This document shows positions 10,288 to 27,886 of a stretch of 46,101 bases of DNA, piece after piece. The notes under the pieces are model-generated. The model saw only the letters and a program-made list of their open reading frames with translations. It ran no database searches and had not been told where the DNA came from. The DNA comes from Desulfovibrio cuneatus DSM 11391 (GTDB lineage Bacteria > Desulfobacterota > Desulfovibrionia > Desulfovibrionales > Desulfovibrionaceae): contig NZ_AUCY01000027.1 of assembly GCF_000430005.1 (NCBI RefSeq), positions 1 through 46,101 on the forward strand, written 5' to 3'. Made by a program: the position numbers and the translations under genes. Positions within the stretch are counted from its first letter, which is position 1; each line of letters starts with the position of its first letter.

Positions 10288-10303
10288 AAGTAGCTCATGA
10301 TAT

Positions 10304-10445: not shown

Positions 10446-10640
10446 TTGTAACGCAGGTTAAAATGTGTTTTTTCCTTGCGCGGGCAGCTTGCAATGGCAT
10501 CCTCGCAACACACGATACCATTATGTTGGTATTCTCATTTTTACTATTCCAGAATATCAATTAACATTGCATGTTATTTGCTCAATTCAAGTGAGCCCCC
10601 CGCAAAAACAGCTACAGAAATACCTGGAAGAACTGGGCCT

Positions 10641-13965: not shown

Positions 13966-13970
13966 GGCAA

Positions 13971-14324
13971 CTACTTGTTGGGGGCTTCGGCAAAGGGAAC
14001 ATTGCCTGCCTGAAAGTGGTGCAGCGCGTCCCCGGTGGTCATGCCGTCTATGTTTTGGCATATCTTAATGCCCGCGGCTTGCAGCGCCTGAAATGCCTTG
14101 GGGCCAACGTAGCCGCTGAGCACAATTTCCACGTTCGCTTCGGCCATGCGTTCTGCCGTGGCAATGCCTGCCCCCTGGCCCAGCACCTGCGAAGCGCCGT
14201 TATCAATATAGCTGGTGGCGCTGTTTGCTGTGTCAAACACAACAAAGCCCCCTGCCCTGCCAAAGCGCGGGTCCACCATGCTTGTAAGGCCTGGGCCTTC
14301 ACTTGAAATGGCAATCTTGCTCAT
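13971..14324 (-). CDS. NifX-type / orange-protein-like cofactor-binding protein
   Basis: A 117-residue protein, first gene of the minus-strand cluster. It opens with KIAISSEGPGLTSMVDPRFG, the usual start of the MTH1175/NifX-like family, then AGGFVVFDT, and has the central GAGIATAERMAEANVEIVLSGYVGPKAF and GDALHHFQAG end. One cysteine (KICQNIDG) is positioned as in several relatives. The start ATG 14324 has GGAGAG 5 bases before it; longer frames upstream are shadow. Of the two NifX-type proteins here this is the better candidate for the orange-protein equivalent because it leads the operon and faces the UPF0251 regulator. Binding of a Mo-Cu or other metal-sulfide cluster is inferred. Confidence 0.8.
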   Translation of the reverse strand: MSKIAISSEGPGLTSMVDPRFGRAGGFVVFDTANSATSYIDNGASQVLGQGAGIATAERMAEANVEIVLSGYVGPKAFQALQAAGIKICQNIDGMTTGDALHHFQAGNVPFAEAPNK

Positions 14325-14349
14325 GCGTCTCTCCTTTGGGAACCTATTG

Positions 14350-14398
14350 TTGACATATGCCGGAAATAGATGTAGCTCGGGTATATGACATATGTCAA
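14350..14398. promoter_or_regulatory. Inverted repeat in divergent promoter region
   Basis: TTGACATATG (14350-14359) and CATATGTCAA (14389-14398) form an inverted repeat, and the right arm lies in a perfect 12-base palindrome TGACATATGTCA (14386-14397). It sits between the divergent cluster halves, the expected place for an operator read by the UPF0251 protein encoded 300 bases away. I looked for a GG-N10-GC sigma-54 pattern and found none. Confidence 0.55.
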
Positions 14399-14418
14399 TA
14401 ACTTTTTGGAGGTGCCCC

Positions 14419-14658
14419 ATGCCTGAACAAAACAGAATGAACAGTCGTTGTTGTGGCAAGCAAGCCGGAAAACGGCGTGTATTGAGCAACTTGAAAAATG
14501 AGGCAACAGTGGGTACACAGGATGCAAGCATGGCAGCAAATGACAGTGCCGTGCCTGTTCCTTGCGGAAATGGCCTGGGCAACGGTTGTGGCAACGGCAA
14601 ACGAAACGGCAGAAGAAATGGGAACAGATATGGGGCCAACCCCCAGGGCAAACAATAA
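14419..14658 (+). CDS. Small Gly/Asn/Arg-rich protein with paired cysteines
   Basis: A 79-residue soluble, basic, low-complexity protein. It begins MPEQNRMNSRCCGKQ and ends in a run of N-G and R-N-G steps (GNGLGNGCGNGKRNGRRNGN). It has four cysteines, two adjacent near residue 11. Its ATG has TTTTTGGAGG 8 bases upstream, close to ideal. I recognise no named family, although short Gly-rich proteins beginning MP.QN. (DUF5320-like) are common beside NifX-type and UPF0251 genes in anaerobes. It is the first gene of the rightward arm and precedes the UPF0251 gene by 59 bases. A metal-handling or structural partner is only a guess. Confidence 0.7.
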   Translation: MPEQNRMNSRCCGKQAGKRRVLSNLKNEATVGTQDASMAANDSAVPVPCGNGLGNGCGNGKRNGRRNGNRYGANPQGKQ

Positions 14659-14717
14659 CGAGTGACGTGGCAGGAAGGCGTTTTGCCTTTTGGCGGAACG
14701 GGTTCAGGAAGGAAGAT

Positions 14718-15128
14718 ATGGCAAGACCACAGAAAATGAGAAAGGTATGTGCCCCCCCTTGCAAAAGGCGCTTTGGCCCGTTGGGGGAAGGGGCTGGAAC
14801 CCGTGGAACAGTGACCCTGACTGTGGATGAGTATGAAGTGCTACGGCTTATTGATTATGAAGGCTTACTTCAGGAAGAGTGCGCGGAAAAAATGCAGGTT
14901 GCCCGCACCACGGTGCAGGCCATGTATGGGGCTGCCCGGAAAAAACTGGCCATAATGCTGGTGGAAGCCACTGCCCTGCGTATTGAAGGCGGTAATGTGC
15001 GCCTGTGTGAAGGCACCGACCTGCATTGCCATAAAAAAGGGTGCTGCCGGTTTCAAAGACATGTGGAACAACTAGGCTCCCCGGCAACCGAGGAAACGCA
15101 AGTGCCTGGGGTGTGCCCCAAAAAGTAG
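14718..15128 (+). CDS. UPF0251 (DUF134) DNA-binding protein
   Basis: A 136-residue predicted transcription regulator. The family core is complete: MARPQKMRKVCAPP at the start, then VTLTVDEYEVLRLIDYEGLLQEECAEKMQVARTTV, a sigma-factor-region-4-like helix-turn-helix, followed by YGAARKKLA and VEATALRIEGG. The C-terminus has Cys/His (CEGTDLHCHKKGCCRFQ), which may bind a metal or a cluster. ATG 14718 is preceded by AGGAAGGAAG and begins at the conserved MARP; the longer frame is shadow. UPF0251 genes usually sit beside NifX-type proteins, and this one faces that cluster across a palindrome, so control of both arms is likely. Confidence 0.88.
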   Translation: MARPQKMRKVCAPPCKRRFGPLGEGAGTRGTVTLTVDEYEVLRLIDYEGLLQEECAEKMQVARTTVQAMYGAARKKLAIMLVEATALRIEGGNVRLCEGTDLHCHKKGCCRFQRHVEQLGSPATEETQVPGVCPKK

Positions 15129-15160: not shown

Positions 15161-16360
15161 CTAGAGGGCTGAAGCGCTTTCTACCCGCACGCTAAGGCGT
15201 ACCTCCATCCCCCCTGAAGGGAGGGGGGTAAAGCACAACTCTGCCCCAATTTCATGGGCAATTTTACGTGTGGCAAACAGGCCAATGCCATTGCCCTGCT
15301 CTTTGAGGGAAACAAACGGTATGCCCCCCGGCCCTTGCCCCCCACCTGCGGTGTCAGGTTCAGCCTGCGCTTTCTTGCCCTGCTCAGGGTGCGCCCCTCC
15401 GTTCTGCCCGGAATCCTGCACATAAAACACAAGTGTTTCCCCCATGTTTTCCGTCAGTTCCCGCGTCACTCCAAGCTGCACCCACGCTTTGCCGCCTGCG
15501 GCGGGCAGGCTGGCTTCCAGGGCATTCAGGGCCAGGTTCATAAGGCAGGCGTGCAGGGCCTGGGCATTCAGAAGGTAGGGCCCGGTGCCCGCTGCGCAGT
15601 GTGTTTCAACCACTATTCCGGCAGCCGTGCCTTGCGGGGTAATAAGGCGTGCCACTTCCTGCAATAATGCTTCGGGGTTTGTGGGTTCATGCACGGCAGG
15701 GGTGGGTTTGCCAAGGTCCAAAAGGCTCATGGCCAGTTTGCGCAGCCTGTCCACATCGTTACGCACCATGTGCCAGCCTTCTTCCAGCAGTTCCGGTTTG
15801 TTGCGCTTCAGGCCTTCTTCCACCACAAACATGGTGCCTTCCAGTGCCCCGGCAATATTTTTTATGGCGTGGGCAAGGCTGGCGGCAGTTTCCCCCACTG
15901 CGGCAAACCGTTCTGTTGCAATCAGTTCTTGCGTGCGCTGCTGGACAAGTTCTTCAAGCTGGGTGGTATACTGGCGCAAGGCTTGCTGCATGGCAATGCG
16001 CTGCCTGGCCCGCTGCAAGGCAACCTCCAGGGCATTTTCCGCCACCGGTTTTGTTAAAAAATCGCCAGCCCCAAGGCGCAAACTGGTTACGGCAAGTTCC
16101 ATGTCTCCATGCCCTGTCAGCATAATCACTTCAGTTTGCGGCAACGTCTGCTTTATGGCCTGCAATAACGCAAGGCCGTCCATGCCAGGCATTTTGATGT
16201 CTGTTATGACAATATCCGGGTTCACCGCGCCAAGCATGGCCAGGGCGGCTTCCCCGCTTTCTGCCAGGGTAACGGCATAGCCCATGTCTTGCAGCAACAG
16301 CCCAAGCACGGTGCGAATGCCTGCTTCGTCATCCACCAAAAGCAGTGAATTTCCCTGCAT
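15161..16360 (-). CDS. Receiver-histidine kinase hybrid (N-terminal REC)
   Basis: A 399-residue cytoplasmic protein with an N-terminal receiver domain (acidic pair D10-D11, phospho-acceptor D54, K104), a coiled linker to about residue 150, a HisKA-like helix with H164 (SLAHAIKN) and a C-terminal ATPase domain (NLALNALEA, DSGQNGG, GNGIGLFATRKI). The ATPase domain holds a Gly/Pro/Gln-rich insertion of about 35 residues between its D and G boxes. There is no DNA-binding output. ATG 16360 has GGGGG upstream and lies 2 bases after the upstream kinase stop, so the two are coupled. The domain order suggests it is regulated by phosphorylation from another kinase, most simply the heme-motif kinase upstream. 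Confidence 0.88.
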   Translation of the reverse strand: MQGNSLLLVDDEAGIRTVLGLLLQDMGYAVTLAESGEAALAMLGAVNPDIVITDIKMPGMDGLALLQAIKQTLPQTEVIMLTGHGDMELAVTSLRLGAGDFLTKPVAENALEVALQRARQRIAMQQALRQYTTQLEELVQQRTQELIATERFAAVGETAASLAHAIKNIAGALEGTMFVVEEGLKRNKPELLEEGWHMVRNDVDRLRKLAMSLLDLGKPTPAVHEPTNPEALLQEVARLITPQGTAAGIVVETHCAAGTGPYLLNAQALHACLMNLALNALEASLPAAGGKAWVQLGVTRELTENMGETLVFYVQDSGQNGGAHPEQGKKAQAEPDTAGGGQGPGGIPFVSLKEQGNGIGLFATRKIAHEIGAELCFTPLPSGGMEVRLSVRVESASAL

Positions 16361-16362
16361 AC

Positions 16363-18648
16363 TTATGCCCCCCCGGTGCAAGGAAAACGCACGCAAAACA
16401 CGGCGCCCTGGGCCTGCGGGTCTTCGTCTTGCCTGTTGTAGGCGGTTATGGTGCCACCAAACTCTTTTACCAGCCCGTAGCTGATGGAAAGGCCAAGCCC
16501 TGTGCCTTTCCCCGCTTCTTTGGTGGTAAAGAAGGGCTCAAACAGCCGGGGCAGGCGGGCCGGGGCAATGCCTGTGCCTGTGTCTTGCACCAGAATTTCC
16601 ACCACGTTGTTGGTAAAGCAGGTGCGCAGGGTAATGCGCCGGGGCGCATCGGGATTTTTGTTGCCCTGTTCTTCAATGGCATCTCTGGCATTGATCATAA
16701 GGTTAATGATAACTTGCTCAAGGCGATTGGGCACAGCCATAATGGGGGGCAGGTCACTTGCCAGTTCATGCACCAGTTCAATGTTTCTGTGGGCAAGCTG
16801 GCGGTTGAAAAACCGGCAGGCATCGGTAATGACTTCGTTCACATACACCCGCTCCAGTACAAGGTCTGTGGGCCTGCCAAACACCCGCATATGGCTGATA
16901 ATTTCCGTGGCCCGGTCTACCTGGGCATCCACTTCTTCCATAAGCTGGGCCAGTGTTTGCGGCACTACGGGTTCTTGCTTTCTGGTTTTACGCAACAAAT
17001 AGCCGCTGGCAGATTTAATTACCGTTAAGGGCTGGTTCAGTTCATGGGCAACGCCTGTGGCCATTTCCCCCAGCATGGCCATTTTTCCGGCCTGCACCAC
17101 CTTTTGTTCCGCTTCCACATGGGCCGTAATGTCGTTGGCAATAAGCAGAAAAACGGATTGTTCCTGATATTCGGAAGGGGAAAGGAAGATGTCCACCGGG
17201 AACACGCGCCCATTGCGGGCGTGCACGTACGCCCTGTGAATAAGGGTGAAGGTGGTGAGCTGGGAAGCATACTGCTGGCGTTCTTCTTCCATGAAGTATT
17301 CCAGAAAAGAACTGCCCACCAGGGCTTCACGCGGGGTAGCATACATGCGCTCCGCTGTGGTGTTGCAATCAATTATTTCCAGGGTGGTTGTATCCAGAAC
17401 AAACACGGCCGTGGGAATGTTGTTCAATATGGCGCGGTACTTAAGCTCGGAGCAGCGCAGGCGTTCTTCCAGGTTTTTCCGCTGCGTAATGTCCTGGGTC
17501 ATTTCCATAACAGCCACAGCGTTGCCAGCGGTGTCCAGCACGGGGGAAGTATGCACCAGCCAGTGCAGCCTGCTGCCGTCTGGGGCAATGGTGCTTTCTT
17601 CACTGCAATGGGCAAGCCCGGTGAGCAAGGTTTTTTCCACCGCGCAGTTGGGGCATTTTGTTTGCCTGCCTTTATAGGCTGTGTAACAGTGGTCCCCCAG
17701 CTTGGGGTGGAACCGTTCGCGGAACAGCCTGTTGGAACGCAGTACCTTGAAATTGTTATCTTGTACCGTAATGGCGCATGGCACCTGGTCGAACAAGCGC
17801 TGGTATTCGTCATATTGGCGGTGCAGGTTGGCCTGGGCCTGGGCAATGCGGCGGTGCATGGTGGTTATGGATTGTGCCAGTTCACCAATTTCGTCCTGCT
17901 GTTGTACCTGGGCCAGGTTGGGCGCTTCCCCCATGGCCACAGCACGGGTGCCTGCAATAAGCTGTTGTATGGGGTAGGTTAAAAAGCGCTTTAAATACCA
18001 GCGCACACTGATACCCCCCAGGAACAGTAACAGGGCGGCAAAGGTAAAAATTGTCCCCTGAAAACTGCGTATGCCCTGCACAGAGGCTGTAAAGGGAATA
18101 ACTACGTCAAGAACACCCAGCACCTGTTGGCTTGCGGGGTGAAAGTGGCAGGGCGGGCCGGAACAGCTTGGTTCATTCATAACCGGGGTTATAACCCCCA
18201 GCATTTGCCTGCCGTCGTGCCCGGTAAACAGGCGGGTGCGCTGGGTGAGGGAAAGTTCGTTACGTGGCGGTGCCGTGGCGTGGCATGTTTGGCAAGGGGC
18301 CTCCTGTGGGCTGGCCCGCTGGCCAACTTCCCCCTGGCGGGAGGAAAACATGACCTCCCCTTCTTTGTTGTAAATGTGCAACAGGTCAATTTCGCTGCTG
18401 TTGCCAAGGTTTTGCACAATATGGGCCAGCTCTTCCCTGTCGTTCAGCAGCATGGCATAGCGCACGCCAAGGCGAATGGTGTCGCCCAGGCGGGCAGCAC
18501 TGGCGGCAAGCCGTGCTTCCAGGTGGCGTTGCTGGTTCCATATGCTGGCAGCGGAAAGCAGCACAACACAGCCAAACAGGGCAGCACCTGTAACCACAAG
18601 TAATTTTGTAGCAAGGGGTTGTTTTGCCAGCCGGGTGAGCAAAGCCAT
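16363..18648 (-). CDS. Membrane sensor histidine kinase with cytochrome-c-type heme motifs
   Basis: A 761-residue inner-membrane kinase. TM1 (about 14-35) and TM2 (199-217) bracket a periplasmic domain that contains CQTCH (119-123) and CSGPPCH (162-168), one standard and one CX4CH heme-attachment motif, so it probably binds c-type heme and senses redox state or a ligand such as NO, CO or O2. Then come HAMP (218-270), PAS1 (about 275-390) with C321-Y and C332-x-x-C335, PAS2 (400-520), HisKA with H535 (GVAHELNQP) and an ATPase domain (NLMINARDAI, DTGTGI, GTGLGLSI). It is coupled to the REC-kinase downstream and lies 56 bases below the other REC-PAS kinase. The heme assignment comes from motifs only. 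Confidence 0.88.
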   Translation of the reverse strand: MALLTRLAKQPLATKLLVVTGAALFGCVVLLSAASIWNQQRHLEARLAASAARLGDTIRLGVRYAMLLNDREELAHIVQNLGNSSEIDLLHIYNKEGEVMFSSRQGEVGQRASPQEAPCQTCHATAPPRNELSLTQRTRLFTGHDGRQMLGVITPVMNEPSCSGPPCHFHPASQQVLGVLDVVIPFTASVQGIRSFQGTIFTFAALLLFLGGISVRWYLKRFLTYPIQQLIAGTRAVAMGEAPNLAQVQQQDEIGELAQSITTMHRRIAQAQANLHRQYDEYQRLFDQVPCAITVQDNNFKVLRSNRLFRERFHPKLGDHCYTAYKGRQTKCPNCAVEKTLLTGLAHCSEESTIAPDGSRLHWLVHTSPVLDTAGNAVAVMEMTQDITQRKNLEERLRCSELKYRAILNNIPTAVFVLDTTTLEIIDCNTTAERMYATPREALVGSSFLEYFMEEERQQYASQLTTFTLIHRAYVHARNGRVFPVDIFLSPSEYQEQSVFLLIANDITAHVEAEQKVVQAGKMAMLGEMATGVAHELNQPLTVIKSASGYLLRKTRKQEPVVPQTLAQLMEEVDAQVDRATEIISHMRVFGRPTDLVLERVYVNEVITDACRFFNRQLAHRNIELVHELASDLPPIMAVPNRLEQVIINLMINARDAIEEQGNKNPDAPRRITLRTCFTNNVVEILVQDTGTGIAPARLPRLFEPFFTTKEAGKGTGLGLSISYGLVKEFGGTITAYNRQDEDPQAQGAVFCVRFPCTGGA

Positions 18649-18704
18649 AGCATTTCCTTATTCTTTCTTCCGCTTGGGCTGCGTGGAGATGTACAGGGTG
18701 CGGG

Positions 18705-20675
18705 CTACTCTTGCGGCTGCTGCGGGGTGCGGGGCAGGGTTATGGTAAAGGCAGAACCTTGCCCTGGGGCCGATTCCACAGCAATGTGGCCCCCGTGCTG
18801 GGCCACTACCTGGTTGGCAACAAACAGGCCAATGCCCGTGCCAGCAGCCCCCTTGGAGGAAAAGAACAGGGTAAACAACTTTTCGCGTGTTTCCGTGTCC
18901 ATGCCATGGCCTGTGTCGCGTATGCAAAAGCAGATGGTTTCAGGCGTGGTTTCCACGGCAAAGGTAACTGTGGGGGGGGTGGCAGGTGGGCTTTGGGTGG
19001 CGGTGCAGGCTTCCACCGCGTTTTCCAGAATATTCACCAGGGCAGAAGACATGGCGCTGCTGTCTACAGTAAATGTGCCCCATTCTTCTTGCCGGGCAGG
19101 GGCAAAAACAAAGTGTACCCCGCGTTCTTCGGCCTTGCTGCGCCCAATGGTGGCATTTTCCGCGGTAAAGTCAGCCACGGCAAGTGTTTCCCACACCATG
19201 CTGCGTTCTTTGGAATAGTAAAGAATGTCCAGCACCAGTTTTTTAAGTCGGGCGGAAAGCTGGCGCATGTCGGCAAAGGCGTCTTCAACCCGGGCCGGGT
19301 TATTTTTTTCAAGGCCACTGCCCATGCGGTACACAGCACCATCCATGCCCGTAAGCAGGCCTTTTATGCCGTGGGCCGTGGAGCCGAGCAACAGCCCAAG
19401 CTGGGCAAGGCGGCTTTGCAGGTTGCGCAATTCCGTAATGTCTGTGGAAAGTTCCAGCACTTCCGCCACATTCCCTTTGGCGTCATACAGGGGAGCTGTG
19501 CTTACAAGCACATTGACCTGCCGCCCGTTTTGGGCTGTAACCACCGTTTCATGCTGGTGGGTGCCCCCGTCCTGGAACGTGTGCTGGGCCGGGCACCCGG
19601 AACAAACAGACTGGCGGTGGGCGTACAGTTCGTGGCAGGATTTGTTCCCGGTTTCGCCAAAATCATCGCGGAATTTGCGGTTTGCTTCCACCACCCGCAT
19701 GCCTTTATCCATAACCGCAATATAGCAGGGCGAGGCATCAAACAGCCTTCGGTAGCGTTCCTGGGTTTGGCGCAGGTCTTCGCGCAGGCGGCGCACTTCT
19801 GAAATGTCTACGGAAAGTTCAAGTACCAGTTCCACTTCGCCATCATTGTCATAAATAGGGGCGGTGTGGACAATAACCGGAATTTCTGTGCCTGTTTTAT
19901 CCACAATAAGTTGGTCACTTCTGTGCCCAATGCCCGTTTCAAGCACCTCACGCACCGGGCACATGCGTTTGGGCACCGCATTGGGGGCATAAGCCGCCCA
20001 ACTGTTGCCCCCCACTAGGTTGCCCAGGCGTTCCCTGTACAGGGCATTAATGGCAACAATTTTCAGGTCGGCATTATGCACGGCCACAAAACACGGCAGT
20101 TCGTTGAAAATGCCTTCGGGCACAGGCACGTCAGTGCCAAGGCCTTCTTGTTCTTCCGTTACTGCAAATGTGAGGGAACGAATGCCGGAGGCAATGCCTT
20201 CCATCACCTGCATGGCCGCAAGCTGGCGTTCCGCTTCCACCAGTTGGGCAGACTTTTCCCGCACCATGTCTTCAAGGTTCTGGGCATAGGCGCGCAGGTC
20301 TTTACGCATTGAAATACGTTCCACCGCACGTTGCAGGGCAATTTCCAGCACGTCCTGGTTTACGGGCTTTAACAGAAAGTCAAAGGCATCCAGCTTCAGG
20401 CTTTCAATGGCCAGGTCCATGTCGCCATGGCCAGTAAGCATGATCACTTCCGCTTCAGGGCTATGCTGTTTTACACGGGCCAAAAGCTCCAGGCCGGAAT
20501 GGCCGGGCATTTTAATGTCGGTAAGTACCAGCTCAAAGGGCAGGGCAAGGAAGCGTTCCCATGCTTCTTCAGCGTTGGCAGCAACGGTTACAGCATAGCC
20601 GCAATCGTTCAGCACCAGGGAAAGTACGTTGCGTATGCCTTCTTCGTCGTCCACAAGCAGCAGCCGCGTTTTCAT
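18705..20675 (-). CDS. REC-PAS-PAS-histidine kinase of the tmc locus
   Basis: A 656-residue cytoplasmic protein: receiver (D9-D10, D53, K103), coiled linker, PAS1 (about 188-298), PAS2 (about 305-418), HisKA-like helix with H435 (STAHGIKG), and ATPase domain (NILENAVEA, DTGHGM, GTGIGLFVAN). PAS2 carries C347, C358, C361 in the same Cys-His/Tyr...CxxCP layout as the heme-motif kinase; PAS1 keeps only a single CP and may have lost the ligand. No transmembrane segment or DNA-binding domain. A strong AAGGAGGGGG precedes ATG 20675. It corresponds in position to the sensor kinase that I recall as DVU0258 at the D. vulgaris tmc locus. It may take phosphate from or give it to the two small receivers upstream. 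Confidence 0.87.
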   Translation of the reverse strand: MKTRLLLVDDEEGIRNVLSLVLNDCGYAVTVAANAEEAWERFLALPFELVLTDIKMPGHSGLELLARVKQHSPEAEVIMLTGHGDMDLAIESLKLDAFDFLLKPVNQDVLEIALQRAVERISMRKDLRAYAQNLEDMVREKSAQLVEAERQLAAMQVMEGIASGIRSLTFAVTEEQEGLGTDVPVPEGIFNELPCFVAVHNADLKIVAINALYRERLGNLVGGNSWAAYAPNAVPKRMCPVREVLETGIGHRSDQLIVDKTGTEIPVIVHTAPIYDNDGEVELVLELSVDISEVRRLREDLRQTQERYRRLFDASPCYIAVMDKGMRVVEANRKFRDDFGETGNKSCHELYAHRQSVCSGCPAQHTFQDGGTHQHETVVTAQNGRQVNVLVSTAPLYDAKGNVAEVLELSTDITELRNLQSRLAQLGLLLGSTAHGIKGLLTGMDGAVYRMGSGLEKNNPARVEDAFADMRQLSARLKKLVLDILYYSKERSMVWETLAVADFTAENATIGRSKAEERGVHFVFAPARQEEWGTFTVDSSAMSSALVNILENAVEACTATQSPPATPPTVTFAVETTPETICFCIRDTGHGMDTETREKLFTLFFSSKGAAGTGIGLFVANQVVAQHGGHIAVESAPGQGSAFTITLPRTPQQPQE

Positions 20676-21032
20676 GCCCCCTCCTTACCTTGGCCAGCAG
20701 TTTTTTCTATGCAGAACCCACAACGCAAAATTGTATGCAGACATTGCAAAATACATATGTCATAGAAAGAGTGTTTGGCTATCTTTTTGTTCTCAGGCAA
20801 GAGTTTTACCAAAATGAGGGACAAAAAGAGGTGGTGGTAAAGACAAACACACGCTATGCGAGGCAATTTTGCTTGCAGACTTGCCCCAATGTTGTTCGGC
20901 TAAAAAGCTGGACAACATTGATGCTATAGGCAAAACAGTAAGCGCTGGCAGGTTGGGGGGCAAGCTAAATTATGCGGAAGTTGGCGCGGCAGGGTAGTTG
21001 CGGTGTAATCTGAATAGCCTGAAACAAGGAGA

Positions 21033-21071
21033 GGGCTGTAGTTTGTGCCTTGCAACACAAGGCTACAGCCC
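21033..21071. other. Nested hairpin in a 450-base untranslated gap
   Basis: The gap 20676-21126 inside the minus-strand run has no gene. It holds GGGCTGTAG (21033-21041) pairing with CTACAGCCC (21063-21071) around an inner GCCTTG/CAAGGC stem. The T run (TTTTCC) is on the plus-strand side, so for the minus-strand genes this is not a standard terminator; it may be an RNA-processing or attenuation site that lowers expression of the kinases. Confidence 0.5.
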
Positions 21072-21126
21072 TTTTCCAAAAGTAAGCCCCGACCCTTGTG
21101 CAGTGGGCCAAGGCGAACGAGCAACG

Positions 21127-21483
21127 TTAGTCACCCAGCGTTGCTTTGATTGTTTCCAGTAACTTGTGTGGGTCGAAGGGCTTTTTAAAAGAAGCCACAG
21201 CCCCGTGAATGGCAAGGTGAATGCCGGAAAGCCCGCTGATGACAATAACAGGTGTATTTTTAAACGCTTCTTCTTTCACCATTTTACGGTAAAAGCGGGG
21301 CCCCCATTCATTGGGCATTTCCAGGTCCAGCGTTATCAGGTCTGGCTTTTCCCTTTTCAGCACTTCCAGTGCTTCGGCCACATCCGGGGCAGAGCAGGTT
21401 GCGTAACCGCTGTCAGCCAAAAAATCGGTCATGTATTTGACTATGTGCGGATCATCGTCAACAATCATTATCTTGTGGGCCAT
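21127..21483 (-). CDS. Stand-alone response regulator receiver (DivK-like)
   Basis: A 118-residue single-domain receiver with D9-D11, phospho-acceptor D53 (ITLDLEMP), an S/T in VIVISG and the conserved lysine in SFKKPFDP. It has no output domain, so it must act by protein-protein contact or as a relay between kinases. ATG 21483 follows GGAGGAAGG. It lies between two untranslated gaps of 450 bases. The position matches the DivK-like regulator that I recall as DVU0259 beside tmc in D. vulgaris. Its partner kinase is probably the REC-PAS-PAS kinase that follows. Confidence 0.88.
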   Translation of the reverse strand: MAHKIMIVDDDPHIVKYMTDFLADSGYATCSAPDVAEALEVLKREKPDLITLDLEMPNEWGPRFYRKMVKEEAFKNTPVIVISGLSGIHLAIHGAVASFKKPFDPHKLLETIKATLGD

Positions 21484-21707
21484 GGTTGTACCTTCCTCCG
21501 TGCGAGTTCACGCGTAAACGCCATGCTGCGTTGCCTGCGAAATTATGCACAGCCATACGGCTGCGTAAGTATACCTATTTTGGCAGTGCTTGCCACCATT
21601 CGTTTTTGCCACTAAACAGAAAGGGGCAAGCAACTGCCGAGCTGCAAGAAAAGGGAAGCTCTGGGTAACCAGGGTATTCCCAGGTGCACTGCTTGCCTGG
21701 CACATGC

Positions 21708-21837
21708 CCCCCAGCCAGGACTGCCACGTAATGGCTGGGGGAAAGGCATATGCCAGGGGAAGCATGCGGTGGTTGTTACACCACTTTGGCGGCACCCCAT
21801 GCCAGCCAGGACTGCCACGTAATAGCTGGGCATGGGG
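21708..21837. repeat. Two related hairpins with a shared loop, intergenic
   Basis: The gap 21484-21933 has no gene. Hairpin 1 is CCCCCAGCCA (21708-21717) with TGGCTGGGGG (21732-21741). Hairpin 2 is CCCCATGCC (21795-21803) with GGCATGGGG (21829-21837), plus inner pairs. Both present the loop GGACTGCCACGTAA, and the copies share CCAGCCAGGACTGCCACGTA. A smaller CTGGG/CCCAG stem lies at 21661-21683. Different stems with an identical loop suggest selection on the loop as RNA. Confidence 0.65.
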
Positions 21838-21933
21838 GGCCACCAAAATTATACTCTGTGGTAAATGTCTGGGCATTTACCCGTGAACAAAATCTTGGTT
21901 TCAGTAAGAACTTTCGCCTGCTGGCTGGTCAGG

Positions 21934-22344
21934 CTAGAGCACCCCTTGGGGGGGTGGCCTATGCAGCGCTGTGTGTGCAAGGGCCAAAATTGTTTCTGGT
22001 GCTGGTGGTTTTTCCACGTAAGCGAATGGTTCAGGCAGTGCCCCTTCCTGCATGCTATTCATTGCCAGGGCATGAACATACGCTTCCTGTGTCACTCCGC
22101 TCACCATAATAACCGGAATGTGCCGCCATGCAGGGGTCATGCATATGGCCCGGTAAAGGCCCAGCCCACTTTCTTCCGGCATCATCACGTCCAGGGTAAC
22201 AAGGTCTGGAAGTGTTTGCCCAAGAAGTGTTAGCCCTTCGTTTCCGTTGCGGGCTGTGCTTACTGTGAACCCTTGCAGGGCAAACAGGTTTTTCAAAAAA
22301 AAGCGGAATGAAACATCGTCATCAACAACCAGAATATGTGGCAT
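21934..22344 (-). CDS. Stand-alone response regulator receiver
   Basis: A 136-residue single-domain receiver: DDD at 8-10, phospho-acceptor D52 (VTLDVMMP), VSG (switch residue) and the lysine of VEKPP. A 15-20-residue insertion (ALAMNSMQEGALPEPF) before the lysine strand and a Pro-rich tail (HRPPPQGVL) set it apart from the second receiver. No DNA-binding domain. It is 19 bases downstream of the universal stress gene, so co-transcribed. It fits the position that I recall as DVU0260 at the D. vulgaris tmc locus. A long untranslated gap follows it. Confidence 0.87.
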   Translation of the reverse strand: MPHILVVDDDVSFRFFLKNLFALQGFTVSTARNGNEGLTLLGQTLPDLVTLDVMMPEESGLGLYRAICMTPAWRHIPVIMVSGVTQEAYVHALAMNSMQEGALPEPFAYVEKPPAPETILALAHTALHRPPPQGVL

Positions 22345-22363
22345 GGTGTTGCAGGGGGCTGGC

Positions 22364-23296
22364 TCAGGCCAGTTCCGAAACTTTATCCATGCGGTTCACG
22401 CTGGCCACAGGGCAGGCGGAGCGCAGCACCACCTGTTCCACGGTGGAGCCAATTTCCGCCTCATCTTCGTGTACGTCGTGGGTGTGGTGGGCCATTACAA
22501 TAAGGTCTGCCTTTTTATCTCGGGCAAATTTCAGAATTTCCACGTATGGGGTGCCTTCCCAAATTTCCACTTGGTAGTTGTCAAACCCTTCCATGCGGGA
22601 AATATAGCGCTCCTGCATCATTTCCCGTGCTTTTGCCAGCTTGCGTTCAATTTCCACCTGCCCGGCATATACCCCGAGCAGGGCATTGGAAATGTCGCAG
22701 GCATGGAACAGGTACAGCTTTGCCCCTACTTCCTTGGCCGTTTTATAGGCAAACTGGAAGGCGGCATCTGCTGCCTTGGAAAAGTCGGTACAAAAGATAA
22801 TGTTTGAAAACATGCGCCAGCAGGTGGTGCAGGGGCGGTTTACAATAAGCACAGGGCACTTGGCAGCGCGGGCAACTTTACGCATGGTGTTGCCAATAAC
22901 AGCGCGGGAACGTGAAGAGGTGTTGTCCTCTTCACTGTTATGGGCCCCCATAACAATAATATCCACATCTTCTTGCCGGGCGAAGCGCAAAATTTCTGTG
23001 TGCGGCACCCCCACAGCCAGTTGGGTTGCCAGTGTGCCTTTACTGAGGCCCTTAATTTGGTCTGCATATATGGTGTGCAGTTCTTCCTGCACCCATTCGC
23101 GGTAATCGGTATCCACAAGGTCTTCTTCACCAGACTTTAAATCACGCACAAGGTGCCCAAAACCACGGGTAGGTGCGCCAAAAACGTGGAACAGATACAG
23201 CCGTGCTTCATTACGTTCGGCAAGGTCGAAAGCAGATTTTGCAGCATTGTTGCTGCCAGGTGATGCGGTGGTGGCAAAGAGAATTTTTCCAAACAT
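22364..23296 (-). CDS. Tandem universal stress protein
   Basis: A 310-residue protein made of two UspA domains. The first (1-155) begins FGKILFATTASPGSNNAA and ends with VMGAHNS...SRAVIGNTMRKVARAAKCPVLIVNR; the second (160-305) begins MFSNIIFCTDFS and has IVMAHHTH...IGSTVEQVVLRSACPVASV. The G-2x-G-9x-G(S/T) ATP-binding pattern is partly kept in the first domain and weaker in the second. A CTTC pair lies in the linker. The gene starts 4 bases after the upstream hypothetical gene ends. A universal stress gene at this point is part of the tmc neighbourhood in Desulfovibrio (DVU0261 as I recall). Its task in the complex is not known. Confidence 0.9.
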   Translation of the reverse strand: MFGKILFATTASPGSNNAAKSAFDLAERNEARLYLFHVFGAPTRGFGHLVRDLKSGEEDLVDTDYREWVQEELHTIYADQIKGLSKGTLATQLAVGVPHTEILRFARQEDVDIIVMGAHNSEEDNTSSRSRAVIGNTMRKVARAAKCPVLIVNRPCTTCWRMFSNIIFCTDFSKAADAAFQFAYKTAKEVGAKLYLFHACDISNALLGVYAGQVEIERKLAKAREMMQERYISRMEGFDNYQVEIWEGTPYVEILKFARDKKADLIVMAHHTHDVHEDEAEIGSTVEQVVLRSACPVASVNRMDKVSELA

Positions 23297-23300
23297 TGTG

Positions 23301-23891
23301 TTATACTCCCAGGCTACATTGTTGCGTTCCTCCCCGGAAGCTGAACTCCCAGGCCAGTCCGTCTACAACTTCAAACAGTGTAAACCTGCTGGTACACATA
23401 AGCTCGTGGTTCACATTGCCCAATACGGTATGTTTCAGGGCACCAAGTACCAGCGGTATATCCAAAAGCAGTGTAGCAGGAATAAAGCGTACTTCCACGT
23501 TTGCCAGGGCTGTTGCCATTCGCTCTTCTCCCCCTTGGGCCTGCCACTGGGCGGTGTGTTCCGGGGCTATGCCCCGCAACCACAAAAATTGCTCAACCCT
23601 GGGGGGGGGAGGGAAGCCTAAAAGTTCATTTGTTTTTCCCAAAACCAGTTGGGCTACTTCCGGGCAGGAACACCCTTGCTCTGGGCTTTGGGAGGCTTCT
23701 GCCACCCAGTCTGGTAAAAATTCGGAAAGCTCTTGCAGTATGGGGTAGTGCACAAACATGCGTAAAAAGGAACGCAATGTGCAGCCAGGTTGCAGCACAA
23801 GCGTCCTGCCAAGAATAGGCAGTGGGGTATGTACTTGAAGGCATGCCCCGCCCAGCAATGTGCCTTCTGGTGTTACTACCACAGTTTCCAT
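23301..23891 (-). CDS. Conserved hypothetical protein of the tmc locus
   Basis: A 196-residue soluble protein of unknown function, positioned like DVU0262 in D. vulgaris as I recall. Features: N-terminal beta-rich part (METVVVTPEGTLLGGACLQVHT), a middle helical part with CSCPE (two cysteines), a hydrophobic segment near residues 145-165 (FIPATLLLDIPLVLGALKH) too polar at its ends for a clear membrane helix, and a beta-rich C-terminus. I chose ATG 23891, with AGGA 7 bases upstream, over a start seven codons earlier. It lies between tmcA and the universal stress gene in one transcription unit, so it may serve the Tmc complex or its signalling. No motif allows a firmer call. Confidence 0.75.
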   Translation of the reverse strand: METVVVTPEGTLLGGACLQVHTPLPILGRTLVLQPGCTLRSFLRMFVHYPILQELSEFLPDWVAEASQSPEQGCSCPEVAQLVLGKTNELLGFPPPPRVEQFLWLRGIAPEHTAQWQAQGGEERMATALANVEVRFIPATLLLDIPLVLGALKHTVLGNVNHELMCTSRFTLFEVVDGLAWEFSFRGGTQQCSLGV

Positions 23892-23990
23892 TTGTTTTCC
23901 TACCTTGCGCAAACAGGGTGCAAGCCTTTTTGGGGGGCCGCCGGGAAGGAAAACTTGTTATGGGTTTTCCTTCCCTTTTTTGACTTGGGG

Positions 23991-24404
23991 CTACCCGTTT
24001 GTGTGGCACCCGGTGCAATGCAGTGGCCCTTGCTTGCGTTCCTGGTGGCACCCCATGCATTGCAGGTGGAATGCGCGGCGCAGTGCGGTTTGCCCTTTTA
24101 CCGGGGAAACGGCGTGGCATTCCACACAATCGGTGCCTGCGGTCATGTCTGCCATGTCGCGCTTGCCATCCTTGTCTTTTCCGTGGTGGCAGGTGGCACA
24201 GTCGTCAATGCCTGCTTTTTCATTGTGTTCATCGTGGCGGAACAAAGCAGCAGGGCGGGTGTGTGGCTTCAGGGCTTCTGAGCGCACATGGGTAATATCT
24301 TCCTGGGAGGAAAAGGCTGGCGGCAGGCCCAGGCACAGGCCCCCCGTAGCTACCAGGGCCGCACAAACAAGTACTTTGCACACGGTGCTGTTCAGTTTTT
24401 TCAT
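23991..24404 (-). CDS. tmcA: Tetraheme type II cytochrome c3, TmcA
   Basis: Periplasmic electron carrier that accepts electrons from type I cytochrome c3 and hydrogenases and passes them to the Tmc membrane complex. The 137-residue precursor has a signal peptide (basic KKLNSTVCK, hydrophobic core to about residue 30, cleavage near AFS) and four heme sites: CATCH 69-73, CVECH 93-97, CMGCH 116-120 and CTGCH 130-134. Extra histidines (H48, H57, H60, H74, H113 region) supply the second axial ligands. Four CX2CH motifs and no CX4CH agree with the acidic/type II c3 group. It is followed by the locus hypothetical gene and preceded by tmcB 23 bases away. Confidence 0.94.
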   Translation of the reverse strand: MKKLNSTVCKVLVCAALVATGGLCLGLPPAFSSQEDITHVRSEALKPHTRPAALFRHDEHNEKAGIDDCATCHHGKDKDGKRDMADMTAGTDCVECHAVSPVKGQTALRRAFHLQCMGCHQERKQGPLHCTGCHTNG

Positions 24405-24427
24405 GCGTGGCTTTCTCCTTGCCAGGG

Positions 24428-25747
24428 CTATTCAGCGCCCGGTTTTTCCATGAGCTCAAAAATCAGGTCGCCAATAAACTTGGTGTGCATGCCAAGCTTG
24501 TAGTGGGAGATAATATCTTCCAGCCCGCCGTGACAGTTGTGGCAGGGGGCAATAACATATTCCACCCCGGTGGCGGCAAGTACGTCTGCCTTTACTTTGT
24601 TGCCTGCCACGCGGGTGCCCTTGAACGGAGGCCCGCAGTTAATAACGCCCCCCCCGGCACAGCAGCAAATGGTGTGTTCGCGGTTTGGGGTCATTTCCAC
24701 CACATTTTCACACAGCATGTGCACCACTTCACGCAGTTTTTCCATAAGGCCATACCCGCGGGTAATGTTGCAGGGGTCGTGAATGGTGACTGGCTTTTGA
24801 AACTTTTGGGGGATCTTGATTTTGCCAGTAGTGAGCAGTTCCCAGAAAAATTCCACAGAGTGGACAATGGGCACAGGCCAGTCTTTAAACCCAAGCCAGC
24901 GGTTGCCCGTGTCGTATACGGAACGGAACGCATGGCCGCATTCCCCCATAACAATGCGTTTAACACGCAGGCGCTGGGCCATTTCATAGTGTGCGCGCTT
25001 CAGGCGGCCCATCATTTCCAGGTTCCCTGTCATCATGCACATGTCGCTGTTGTCCCAGCCGGGGCCAGCAGGCATGGTCCAGTCTATGCCGGCCTGGTTC
25101 ATAATGGCTGCGGCCTGGTAAATAAGCTGGGTGCGGAATTTTGGTTCTGGGGCAATAACGGAATACAGCACATCTGACCCTTCCTTATCCAGCGGAATAC
25201 GCAGCTTGGGGAATTCGTCGCGTGCTTCATCTTCCTGCCACATAAGGCTGTCAATCCATTCGTCTTCCTTCACCCACATCTGGTTCATGGTGGCGGAATG
25301 GCTGTGGGCCGTGTCCAGAATATACATGGGAACAACGCCCAAAAGGTGGCAAATGCGGCGCACAAGGCTAATGATGTAGCCAGTATCAATGCCTACCGGG
25401 CAAAAGTGCACACAGCGTTTGCACATGTTGCATTCGGTAAAGGCAATTTGTGCCATGTTGTAAATTTCATCAGGGGTAACGCGGCCGTCGGTGCGCAGCA
25501 GCCGCCACATGGTTTGTTCCATTTTGCCCACCGGGGTATAGGTGGGGTCGCCTTTGTGGGAAAGGCTGAAGTGGCAGGCTTCGGCGCACATGCCGCAACG
25601 CATGCATGTTTCATGGTACACGGCAAGGCGTGCCCCCGCTTCCCCTTTGGTGACGCTGCGCACCACTTGCTGTATTTTATCCGGCGTAAGGGCTGCCACC
25701 GCCTTCAAAAGGTTGGCGTCTTCTATTTTTCGTTCAGCTATGCCCAT
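24428..25747 (-). CDS. tmcB: Tmc complex iron-sulfur/CCG subunit, TmcB
   Basis: Cytoplasm-facing subunit related to HdrD and HmcF. The 439-residue protein has two 4Fe-4S motifs near the N-terminus (C48, 51, 54, 58 and C106, 109, 112, 116) and two cysteine-rich CCG regions: GECGHAF with HDPCN, and CCCAGGGV...APCHNCHGG near the C-terminus, which in HdrB/D bind a catalytic non-cubane cluster. It probably delivers electrons from TmcC to the sulfate-reduction pathway, for instance a DsrC or disulfide-type partner; the real acceptor is not shown by sequence. I chose ATG 25747 with AAGGAG 7 bases upstream; the 46 codons before it are shadow. A 180-base gap with a hairpin separates it from tmcC. Confidence 0.93.
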   Translation of the reverse strand: MGIAERKIEDANLLKAVAALTPDKIQQVVRSVTKGEAGARLAVYHETCMRCGMCAEACHFSLSHKGDPTYTPVGKMEQTMWRLLRTDGRVTPDEIYNMAQIAFTECNMCKRCVHFCPVGIDTGYIISLVRRICHLLGVVPMYILDTAHSHSATMNQMWVKEDEWIDSLMWQEDEARDEFPKLRIPLDKEGSDVLYSVIAPEPKFRTQLIYQAAAIMNQAGIDWTMPAGPGWDNSDMCMMTGNLEMMGRLKRAHYEMAQRLRVKRIVMGECGHAFRSVYDTGNRWLGFKDWPVPIVHSVEFFWELLTTGKIKIPQKFQKPVTIHDPCNITRGYGLMEKLREVVHMLCENVVEMTPNREHTICCCAGGGVINCGPPFKGTRVAGNKVKADVLAATGVEYVIAPCHNCHGGLEDIISHYKLGMHTKFIGDLIFELMEKPGAE

Positions 25748-25803
25748 GTTTTTCTCCTTGTTCTGGCGTATTCCAGAGCAGGTTTCTTGCAAAGAACCGT
25801 ATT

Positions 25804-25849
25804 TGGCAGCCGCAGGGAATGATCTTTCCTGAATGACTTTGGGCTGCCA
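25804..25849 (-). other. Hairpin in tmcC-tmcB intergenic region
   Basis: TGGCAGCC (25804-25811) pairs with GGCTGCCA (25842-25849), with an inner AGG.AA/TT.CCT stem. It lacks a T run for the minus strand. In the only large gap among the four tmc genes it may stabilise or process the mRNA to set the ratio of TmcB/A to TmcC/D. Inference. Confidence 0.5.
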
Positions 25850-25927
25850 GAAGCCTTTATGCTGTGCAGCCAGAGTATGCTGCACGTATGTGCACCCCAG
25901 CGCCTGCCATGCAGGCCGTGTGCTTTG

Positions 25928-26587
25928 TTACCAGTCTGGGCAATGGCGCACTGCGCCAAATTCAGACCCCATGTACGCCCTGGTAAACGGCACAAACAGC
26001 GCGTGGGAAAGGCGTGTAAACGGAATGGCAACCAGTACCGCTTCACCTGAAAGAACGTGCAGCAGTGTCATAAGCAGTGGGTCGCCCACACTTTGGCGCA
26101 CAAGAAGGGCCGTAATAAAAGGCAGGGTTGCCAGGCCCAGGGCCAGCCAGTCGCCGGGGGTGGAAACAAAGCGAACAGTGGAGTTGCTGAGGCGGCGCAC
26201 AAGAAAATAGGCGCAGGAAAGTGTGGCAATAATGGTTAGCGCGGAAGCCACTTGCGGCGGCAACGCCCACACCCGCATCCCAAAGGCATATTCCCATAAA
26301 ATGGCATGCCCCTGTGCGAACAGGGCAAGCAGAATGAAGGAAATGTGGAAGGCAAAGGTAGCAAAAGTCAGCACCGGGTTTTTCTGCCAGCCAAGGGTGG
26401 CAAAGGGGGTCATCCAACGGGCAATGGAACGCATGCCATAGGCTGTGTCAAAATAGGCAACGGCAGCCATTTCCTTGTTTTTAGCAAGGGATGCCATGCT
26501 GAAAATGCGCCATGCGGAACCCACCAGAAAAACAGCCCAGGCGAACCAGGCAAGGGGGCCAACTGCAATGGTATAAAACGTCTGCAT
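25928..26587 (-). CDS. tmcC: Tmc complex membrane subunit, TmcC
   Basis: Integral membrane subunit of 219 residues with about five hydrophobic helices: 4-30 (TIAVGPLAWFAWAVFLVG), 73-95, 110-132, 148-165 and 170-195. It resembles the b-type cytochrome subunits NarI/DsrM/HmcE, with histidines in the helices (for instance near ATFAFHISF, FAQGHAI and LLHVLSGE) able to bind two b hemes and exchange electrons with the quinone pool. It starts 12 bases after tmcD ends and is co-transcribed. Length is normal for TmcC. Assignment rests on the four-gene context plus topology, since the sequence itself is not very conserved. Confidence 0.9.
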   Translation of the reverse strand: MQTFYTIAVGPLAWFAWAVFLVGSAWRIFSMASLAKNKEMAAVAYFDTAYGMRSIARWMTPFATLGWQKNPVLTFATFAFHISFILLALFAQGHAILWEYAFGMRVWALPPQVASALTIIATLSCAYFLVRRLSNSTVRFVSTPGDWLALGLATLPFITALLVRQSVGDPLLMTLLHVLSGEAVLVAIPFTRLSHALFVPFTRAYMGSEFGAVRHCPDW

Positions 26588-26599
26588 TGTATACTCCCC

Positions 26600-27886
26600 T
26601 TAAAAAAGTTCGTTTAACGGCAATACACAGCGCACCAGGGCTCCGTTTTGTACGCCCCTTAGCAAAAGGGACGAACTGTCCGGGCTGAATGCGGGCTGCC
26701 ATGCCTTGGTGAAGGTTTGGCCCACAGGCTTGTTGTCTATAAACACTGTCATGGTGTCTTTTTTGCGCACCAGGGCGGCAACATGCTGCCCGTTCGGGCT
26801 GAATACAGGGGGGTAAGCCATGTCCCAGGCATCATTCCAGGCCACACCATCAACCACCACGCGGAACTCTTCATTTTTGTGCGAAGCAAGGGCCGCAGCG
26901 CGGGTGCCTTGGGGGGAAAGCACCAGGTCGGTAACAACGGGGAAAAGAGCATTCCAGGGGGTGTTGTTGCAGGCCACGGTGAACTTGCCGTATTCCGGGG
27001 CGACTATTGCCCACAGTTTTTTGGCGTCAAAGCTCCATTGCTGGTTCCAGCACTGGTAGTAGGTGGGCTTCCAAAATTCTGCCCCGTCTACCGCCATGCC
27101 CCAGCGCCCGCCTTTACGGAAAGGGGCTGCCACAGCAGAGCCCAGCGGGTCAAAGCTTGGGGCCCATACGCAGTTGTAGGTTGTTGGCCAGGGGGTGCCA
27201 TTTACGGCAATGGTGTACTCAAATTCGTTTAAGCGCACCTGGGCGGCAACTTGTTCTTCCCCCAGGCAATTAAATACTGGGGTCCAGGCGTTTACAAACG
27301 TTTGTTCCCAGGCGGTGCCATTGACGGCTACGGTGTATGCACCCTTGGCAAACGTTTCCAGGTCTGCCTGCTTCAGCGGCACAACCTGCACTACAGCGGC
27401 ACTATTCTTTCCTGTGGGGGAAAGGGAAAAGTCGGTAGCGTTGTCATGCAATTCGGCCCATGGCTCGCCTTCCTTGCACATGCCATATTGCATGTCGCTT
27501 TGGATGGAAGCATAAATTTGGCTCTGGCCCCCAAACATGGTGTTCCAGATAAAGTCGAAGCGTTCTTCCCATGGGGTGCCGTCTACTGCCACTGTCCATT
27601 GGTCGTCTTCCATCACCAGGGCAGTAAGGCGGCCGTCTGGGGCAAAGCGGGGCATCCATGCTTTTTCAAATGACTGTTCCCATTGCCCGTCATTCACGCG
27701 CAATGTAAAGCTGTCATCTTCAAGGCGTACAACTGCCGCCATGTGTGTTCCATCCGGGGAAACGTACAGCTCTTCCTGCCACGCTTCGGGGTCTTTGGGC
27801 AAAACAGAAGCCACTACTGTTTTTTTGCCTTTTTCCCAGTCCCATTCACTTGCGAAAGAAGCTGGCTGAGAACCAGAATTCTTCAT
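26600..27886 (-). CDS. tmcD: Tmc complex subunit, WD40/beta-propeller-like TmcD
   Basis: A 428-residue soluble protein without signal peptide, so cytoplasmic. It is built from roughly eight repeats of 45-55 residues, each with a strand like YTVAVNGTAW, YTIAVNGTPW, WTVAVDGTPW or FRVVVDGVAW, followed by W-x-P-x-F-(S/D)-P-(D/N/L)-G and an AA-x-V strand. This is the pattern of a PD40/WD40-like beta-propeller and matches TmcD. Its role in the complex is probably structural or partner-binding. It is the first gene of the tmc run (GGAGG before ATG 27886), and the AT-rich region to its right should hold the promoter. Confidence 0.9.
   Translation of the reverse strand: MKNSGSQPASFASEWDWEKGKKTVVASVLPKDPEAWQEELYVSPDGTHMAAVVRLEDDSFTLRVNDGQWEQSFEKAWMPRFAPDGRLTALVMEDDQWTVAVDGTPWEERFDFIWNTMFGGQSQIYASIQSDMQYGMCKEGEPWAELHDNATDFSLSPTGKNSAAVVQVVPLKQADLETFAKGAYTVAVNGTAWEQTFVNAWTPVFNCLGEEQVAAQVRLNEFEYTIAVNGTPWPTTYNCVWAPSFDPLGSAVAAPFRKGGRWGMAVDGAEFWKPTYYQCWNQQWSFDAKKLWAIVAPEYGKFTVACNNTPWNALFPVVTDLVLSPQGTRAAALASHKNEEFRVVVDGVAWNDAWDMAYPPVFSPNGQHVAALVRKKDTMTVFIDNKPVGQTFTKAWQPAFSPDSSSLLLRGVQNGALVRCVLPLNELF

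Follow-up and report, generated by a model that had tools for sequence, protein, structure and literature searches.

The genome of Desulfovibrio cuneatus DSM 11391 carries, within a stretch of 46,101 nucleotides (contig NZ_AUCY01000027.1, positions 1 to 46,101; the window), a minus-strand run of 11 genes from 27886 down to 15161, in which the four genes of the respiratory Tmc complex are followed by seven signalling-side genes, namely those for a 196-amino-acid (aa) protein, a tandem universal stress protein (Usp), two lone receivers (REC), a REC-PAS-PAS kinase, a HAMP-PAS kinase with a CxxCH motif and a REC-kinase. Judging from the genes and domains observed, their conserved residues and recurrent linkage, the fusions and the trees, we consider it on balance probable that this module represents a Tmc-linked branch of redox regulation of the Rrf1/Rrf2 type, with transcription as its ancestral output and a last link that is unlinked, replaced or lost in this genome. 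Two observations carry this reading, namely that (i) the recurrent extra gene at module loci of relatives encodes an Rrf2-family DNA-binding regulator (Pfam PF02082), and (ii) natural fusions of an Rrf2 domain with a receiver occur beside tmc. The initial annotation had described an output-less redox phosphorelay. Its inventory, i.e. Tmc genes and six signalling or stress proteins on one strand, was recovered in full with Pfam and NCBIfam, and "output-less" fits the locus in the window, but not the family, as the counts of Rrf2 genes and fusions given below show.

The genes were called by our own open reading frame (ORF) and BLAST rules, and their start positions are approximate:

26600..27886, minus strand: tmcD, predicted beta-propeller subunit (428 aa; NCBIfam NF045725, 597.3 bits, cut-off 440)
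25928..26587, minus strand: tmcC, membrane anchor (219 aa; NCBIfam NF045723, 316.9 bits, cut-off 240)
24428..25747, minus strand: tmcB, Fe-S/CCG protein (439 aa, likely ATG at 25747; NF045724, 840.7 bits, cut-off 735)
23991..24404, minus strand: tmcA, tetraheme cytochrome c3 (137 aa; NF045722, 136.8 bits, cut-off 114)
23301..23891, minus strand: conserved module protein of unknown fold family, the 23301 protein (196 aa, likely ATG at 23891; four bases before usp)
22364..23296, minus strand: tandem Usp (310 aa; Pfam Usp in two stretches)
21934..22344, minus strand: lone receiver REC21.9 (136 aa; Pfam Response_reg only)
21127..21483, minus strand: lone receiver REC21.1, DVU0259 family, Rrf1-like (118 aa; NF045717, 191 bits, cut-off 160)
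18705..20675, minus strand: REC-PAS-PAS-histidine kinase (656 aa; Pfam REC, PAS_4 and HATPase)
16363..18648, minus strand: membrane histidine kinase with N-terminal CxxCH and CxxxxCH (761 aa; Pfam HAMP, PAS, HisKA and HATPase)
15161..16357, minus strand: REC-histidine kinase (398 aa; Pfam REC and HATPase)

Linkage and fusion of Rrf2-family regulators

Among 59 genomes searched with TmcD, that of D. cuneatus included, 32 gave matches, 30 of them, again including its own, at E<1e-100. The 29 other strong tmc loci (L037-L065) show the order hypothetical protein, Usp, receiver and REC-PAS-PAS kinase behind tmc in three cases only (L040, L043 and L044; the hypothetical gene of L043 was missed by our later gene-calling rules), so that Tmc can do without an adjacent module. 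At E<=1e-70, matches to the REC-PAS-PAS kinase were obtained in 106 of the 199 genomes of the order. Of the 128 matches outside the window, 60, picked by hand to spread over genera, had their neighbourhoods retrieved, and 80 further named loci are the best 80 of 319 from one GTDB scan. Closely similar gene orders recur in other genera, so that the order of the module is not a product of chance, and three main settings are seen in the Desulfobacterota, namely behind tmcDCBA, behind hmc (a class III multiheme cytochrome, an Fe-S protein, an NrfD protein, which in L104 is HmcC by NCBIfam, and HmcE- and HmcF-like proteins) and behind a sulfide:quinone reductase (SQR; type III by NCBIfam in L081) with a DUF1641 protein. 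The gene order that the initial annotation proposed to compare is conserved, and its tie of the module to Tmc stands in so far as the association is conserved in several lineages and comes with redox-sensor motifs, but it is neither constant nor specific to Tmc.

The SQR setting (L080, L081, L083-L087, L096, L098, L100, L102, L107, L123, L125, L129) presents a paralogous module, in which the receiver is accompanied by the REC-PAS-PAS kinase; 24 of the 27 SQR groups also have the heme kinase, and one or two Rrf2 genes often lie upstream. This module likely constitutes a separate sulfide-control branch. In some Desulfosarcinaceae/Desulfobacteraceae (L186, L189, L193, L208), Hmc, module and Tmc stand in one run (hmc, hypothetical protein, Usp, receiver, kinase, tmc, receiver) that divides the two lone receivers between both complexes, the 21934-type following Usp and the 21127-type lying behind tmcA (1.96 kb behind it in L186). 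The kinase pair at 16363 and 15161 is present as the initial annotation had it, but it is part of the conserved neighbourhood and not a local extension of the run: in many relatives the pair has a convergent orientation or is found in the interval from tmcA to the hypothetical gene. In genus g21, which includes Halodesulfovibrio spirochaetisodalis (L141), an Rrf2 gene heads this pair on the opposite strand (also L073, L077, L079, L140, L143), and g39, to which Desulfovibrio sp. A2 belongs, has two Rrf2 genes there (L071, L072).

Counted over de-duplicated locus groups with stretches of at least 15 kb, the stretch also contains an Rrf2 gene in 23 of 34 Hmc groups, 16 of 27 SQR groups and 17 of 33 Tmc groups. 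This amounts to 56 of 94 complex-linked module groups versus 1 of 18 tmc groups without the kinase (Fisher p 1.5e-5, and p 0.0016 for Tmc alone, relatedness being ignored), and the sole positive among the latter, L042, carries a heme kinase and Hmc-like genes. Kinase groups for which no complex was found contain Rrf2 in 2 of 9 cases, and the chance expectation is about 0.014 Rrf2 genes per 20 kb (60 hits over the cut-off in 31 genomes).

One could also imagine that the kinases of the module phosphorylate a regulator from elsewhere in the genome, be it a sigma54 activator or a different response regulator, which would then provide the output; we regard this as distinctly improbable. A sigma54-activator gene is found in the same stretch in 8 of the 33 Tmc groups and lies just upstream of tmcD in L043, L047, L053, L089, L103 and L201, and Dde_3711-3713 and 3715 of D. 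alaskensis G20 (see below) are called regulated by sigma54-dependent activators in the part of PMC5193443 that deals with them. However, activator genes are equally common in tmc groups without the kinase (5/18), and sigma54-like sites with a score of at least 9 upstream of tmcD were found in 3 of 60 stretches, as compared with 3.65 expected from mononucleotide shuffles. Given that these 60 upstream stretches show no high-score excess over shuffles, sigma54 control of tmcD as a general rule was rejected.

Two domains joined in one protein are the usual Rosetta-stone sign that their separate counterparts work together. Twelve full-length Rrf2-REC matches without internal stops were found in 11 of 297 genomes, ten from genus g34 and one (G054) from another family, and this natural fusion argues that the separate receiver and the separate Rrf2 protein also work together. 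The fused proteins of L044, L124, L126 and L127 comprise 314-333 aa with the Rrf2 domain N-terminal and the receiver C-terminal, as Pfam confirms for all four, and their genes are divergent from tmcD at a distance of 310-368 bp; a second copy in G205 (L237) is likewise divergent from tmcD, these five being the loci whose surroundings were read with wide flanks. Three further two-domain matches contain a stop (G114, G124, G138), and the one that was read (L238) consists of an Rrf2 gene adjoining a separate receiver-containing gene. All 11 fused receivers aligned retain D9, D10, D53, S83 and K101, with one Asp-to-Asn change at window position 11, and the three cysteines of the Rrf2 part are kept in 11 of 11 rows. 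Term searches of the open-access literature on Rrf2 with receiver yielded no paper on an Rrf2-REC fusion.

In a tree of 194 receivers (126 columns, with many forks unresolved), from which receivers on ORFs of at least 200 aa, including the g39 Tmc receivers of L071 and L072, were left out, the fused rows form one group (support 100/96*). This group nests in a 25-row group (100/96*), the rest of which consists of 11 Tmc-linked and three unplaced receivers, while REC21.1 belongs to a neighbouring 16-row set with 14 Tmc-linked members (100/98*) and the receivers that take the place of rrf1 behind hmc in L233 and L234 are joined in a 44-row group (96/92*). By tree and gene order, the lone receiver next to the respiratory membrane complex of the window is hence Rrf1-like. 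In the tree of 108 Rrf2 rows, a 49-row group (98/93*) unites all 11 fused rows with 10 of 14 Tmc-linked and 18 of 29 Hmc-linked rows and both Rrf2 rows of the g39 hmc loci.

Signalling proteins and surroundings of the module

The module possesses the conserved phospho-acceptor His and Asp residues and the ATP-binding N box of two-component systems. D53 and K101 of REC21.1 have a frequency of 1.00 in 127 aligned rows, as do D52 and K112 of REC21.9 in 50 rows; in the acidic pocket of the latter, D9 alone reaches at least 0.90, and with 80.3 bits on NF045717 (cut-off 160) REC21.9 is not a member of the DVU0259 family. H435 and N548 of the REC-PAS-PAS kinase are invariant in 16 aligned sequences, together with the cysteines C317, C347, C358 and C361, and D53, H163 and N278 of the REC-kinase have a frequency of 1.00 in 40 rows. 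In the membrane kinase, the CxxCH and a second Cx3-4CH motif are found in 62 of 76 aligned rows, some of the 14 rows without both being visibly wrong start calls, and the PAS cysteines C291, C321, C332 and C335, of which the REC-PAS-PAS kinases have a similar set, have a frequency of 1.00 in all 76 rows. Heme motifs and PAS cysteines thus suggest redox sensing by these kinases, with ligand binding presumed, in the case of CxxCH that of heme. No HPt domain was detected in the ten proteins scanned (the rest of the genome was not searched for one), so that a classical phosphorelay (histidine kinase, REC, HPt, REC), as implied by the initial annotation, goes beyond the evidence. The same ten proteins, as well as TmcD, gave no hit to a DNA-binding domain at E<=0.001.

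The gene for REC21.1 is flanked by gaps of 450 and 451 bp, and a single transcript for the whole run likewise goes beyond the evidence because of these gaps. The 450-bp gap between the two lone receivers folds far better than its shuffles (z -7.85) and contains, on the minus strand at 21700-21850, two large hairpins with the common sequence TTACGTGGCAGTCCTGGC. Genome-wide, exact matches to this motif number two, both of them in this gap, and a copy with 2 mismatches is present on contig C8; no Rfam family matched the hairpin region at gathering score.

As possible docking surfaces for the receivers, the initial annotation had named TmcD and the 23301 protein. All four Tmc subunits (TmcA, B, C and D) together exceed their NCBIfam equivalog cut-offs, and the propeller predicted for TmcD is supported by its AF2 model (pLDDT 93.8), which has 491 PDB matches at E<=0.001 with TolB, WD40 and YVTN propellers among the 50 listed. 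Despite the lack of a Pfam hit, the 23301 protein is encoded by a real gene, since it aligns with 59 rows from fetched loci (some genomes twice; 60 rows including the window), and its AF2 model reaches a pLDDT of 88.3, with no fold match at E<=0.001 and no sequence relative in the PDB. In relatives it mostly accompanies Usp and is placed after tmcA or after hmcF; since it also follows hmcF (L082, L144, L157, L165, L183) and is thus not specific to Tmc, we place it in the signalling module, and a role as Tmc subunit was rejected.

Beside the module, positions 12171-15128 encode a DUF134 helix-turn-helix protein and a trio of one NifX-like protein (Nitro_FeMo-Co) and two ferredoxin-MinD ATPases. 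We take these genes to resemble the orp operons of D. vulgaris. In L121, L122, L191 and L237, the trio is again located close to a module or tmc locus. Genes for RhuM-family and Fic-domain proteins lie on the plus strand at 9235-11378, and the contig end (1-92) holds the 3' part of a 5S rRNA gene.

Known systems and published data

To our knowledge, no mechanism has been described for a joint action of the lone receiver Rrf1 and the Fe-S-type DNA-binding protein Rrf2, the latter being the namesake of a large regulator family. The hmc-rrf1-rrf2 system of Desulfovibrio (Nitratidesulfovibrio) vulgaris resembles the window in the lone receiver behind a cytochrome/CCG transmembrane complex, and a layout hmcA, B, C, E, F, receiver, Rrf2 is seen in the two g39 loci L233 and L234. 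In contrast, the complex in the window is Tmc and not Hmc, the signalling side comprises three kinases, a second receiver, Usp and the 23301 protein, and an Rrf2 gene is missing from the locus. REC21.1 exceeds the cut-off of the DVU0259 family model (NF045717), which is a receiver family name only and is also passed by the fused Rrf2-REC of L126 (169.2 bits, cut-off 160). In its four Tmc subunits the window equals the known TmcABCD complex, whereas other tmc loci mostly lack the full module behind tmc.

In the literature, hmc expression is placed under the control of rrf1 and rrf2 (figure legend in PMC10924467, citing Keon 1997), and TmcA-D of D. vulgaris are given as DVU_0263-0266 in a table of PMC10920352. 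A literature term search returned no paper with DVU0258-0262, term look-ups in PMC10102598, PMC3333781 and PMC4641369 gave no DVU025x or DVU026x gene, and passages of PMC4287179 and PMC5701242 give no description of how tmc is regulated. According to PMC5701242, nitrate co-induces two genes with the neighbouring tags Ddes_0843 and 0844 in D. desulfuricans 27774, one for an Rrf2 protein and one for a receiver, which would support the pairing if they are homologous to the genes considered here.

For D. alaskensis G20, Table 1 of PMC5193443 places Dde_3711, 3712, 3713, 3715, 3717, 3718 and Dde_3719 (BadM/Rrf2) in a common fitness cluster. Matched through annotation and order rather than through sequence, these genes correspond to hypothetical protein, Usp, kinase, REC-kinase, heme kinase and Rrf2 as in g21. 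From the values of this table, we obtained correlations (r) of 0.93-0.99 among Dde_3711, 3712, 3713, 3717 and 3718, of 0.77-0.90 between Dde_3715 and these five, and of 0.77-0.93 between the Rrf2 gene Dde_3719 and the six; against HmcA, HmcB and HmcE, r was -0.72 to -0.99. The sections of PMC5193443 on this cluster make no link of the gene set to Tmc. Price et al. (2014) report that Tmc matters for H2 oxidation in G20 (PMC4215793), the signalling genes not being mentioned alongside Tmc in section 2.4.6 of that paper. Dde_3717 is up in copper-grown biofilms in one of PMC11434458 and PMC11433944 and unchanged on coated copper in the other, as far as the parts concerned with this gene go.

Output of the module in Desulfovibrio cuneatus

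In our proposal, the membrane kinase at 16363 would read the periplasmic redox state via its paired c-type heme motifs, the REC-PAS-PAS kinase with its cysteine-rich PAS and the REC-kinase would add cytoplasmic input, and the three kinases together would set the phosphorylation of the two lone receivers, with Usp and the 23301 protein as probable accessories of the module. Ancestrally, and in the 17 Tmc locus groups that have an Rrf2-family gene at hand, the 21127-type receiver would pair with Rrf2 as a split response regulator, setting the expression of the neighbouring respiratory complex. Heme binding, phosphotransfer, the interaction of receiver and Rrf2 and the target promoter are steps that we infer, and control of complex expression by the module is a prediction for D. 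cuneatus. Here, the final step would proceed via an unlinked regulator or would have been changed or lost, because the locus has no Rrf2 gene and the single Rrf2 of the genome lies outside the clade of the fused regulators.

Several points speak against this proposal. Of the 33 Tmc groups, 16 have no Rrf2 gene in the stretch, although a few of these stretches start at or near tmcD, where a gene upstream of it could not show. The linked Rrf2 proteins are mixed on their tree (linked_SQR 9 changes, linked_Tmc 4), and the receiver in the rrf1 position of L233 falls short of the NF045717 cut-off (130.3 bits versus 160). The fitness table covers seven conditions only, with rows pre-selected and Dde genes matched without sequence, and unrelated cluster-mates correlate as well (e.g. 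Dde_0398 with 0.86-1.00; PMC5193443, table data). No binding or expression test of the receiver-Rrf2 pairing was found in the literature. Furthermore, tblastn with 53 linked Rrf2 proteins, including four fusions, revealed no Rrf2 gene or remnant in the window. The genome has one Rrf2 gene, unlinked, about 3 kb from one end of contig C8, and its protein groups with those of six genus-mates that have no kinase (100/98*), outside the 49-row group.

The apparent remnant matches in the window arose only via the receiver parts of the fused queries and were rejected. The neighbours of the single Rrf2 gene on C8 are, by eye, flagellar-hook-, LepA- and signal-peptidase-like genes. Since this Rrf2 groups with genus-mates without the kinase, we judged it unlikely to be the orthologous module partner; its next neighbours on the tree, with weak support (83/72), are the second Tmc-linked Rrf2 proteins of L071, L072 and L138, and it could be their relocated counterpart. 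The genome is 96% complete, so that about 4% may be missing and a contig may be lost. The absence of a linked DNA-binding partner, as stated by the initial annotation, holds for this genome and looks derived. Its own hmc operon (L068, contig C7 of G000) has no rrf1/rrf2 and no module gene behind hmcF, where a transporter-like gene follows. The only other member of the genus with a Tmc match is L037 (G010; 63% TmcD identity), with no module gene in its 17-kb contig and a genome that is 65% complete.

A different explanation is that the phosphorylated lone receivers bind to the cytoplasmic face of Tmc (TmcB/TmcD) or to Usp, so that electron flow would be gated without any involvement of transcription; we consider this rather unlikely. 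It would fit the lack of a DNA-binding domain in the module of the window, the predicted propeller of TmcD and the intactness of receivers and kinases in a genome without a linked Rrf2. It would likewise fit that a receiver gene lies directly behind tmcA in L147, L153, L167, L170, L171, L176, L185, L189, L193, L197, L200, L203 and L208 (twelve of these 13 named loci lie outside the taxonomic order of D. cuneatus by title or are unassigned) and also in L047, and that in L189, L193 and L208 receiver and kinase are on opposite sides of tmc. Against it stand the Rrf2 linkage and Rrf2-REC fusions in relatives, the presence of the module behind an SQR-type enzyme not homologous to Tmc (Pyr_redox_2, DUF1641), and the fact that Dde_3707, taken as tmcD by gene order, does not follow the fitness pattern of the module (r -0.22 to 0.30 with the module genes, from the table in PMC5193443). 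A more specific version, quite unlikely from our point of view, is that the module in the window has shed Rrf2 and its Rrf1-type receivers now act directly on Tmc, tuning electron flow from periplasm to cytoplasm, whereas in relatives the receiver would be half of a split or fused factor with Fe-S (Rrf2) and phosphorylation inputs.

Lastly, the module could be a decaying remnant after Rrf2 loss. The REC-PAS-PAS kinase occurs in 1 of 15 genomes of the genus, several of them incomplete, the end branch of REC21.9 is long (1.71), the gaps of about 450 bp around REC21.1 exceed those of most relatives, and the genome's own hmc is without the module. However, all frames are open, the catalytic residues are intact, and the identities of the signalling proteins to their best relatives range from 43-44% (23301 protein) to 78% (REC21.1), which leaves decay very improbable.

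Under the preferred reading of an Rrf1/Rrf2-type branch, the natural Rrf2-REC fusions beside tmc make the idea of a split response regulator directly testable, and the genome of D. cuneatus, in which kinases and receivers are kept but no Rrf2 is linked, offers a natural test of receiver action without Rrf2. The related sensor sets on Tmc, Hmc and SQR in the Desulfobacterota further suggest that sulfate reducers control the flow of electrons from hydrogen and sulfide through one common layer.

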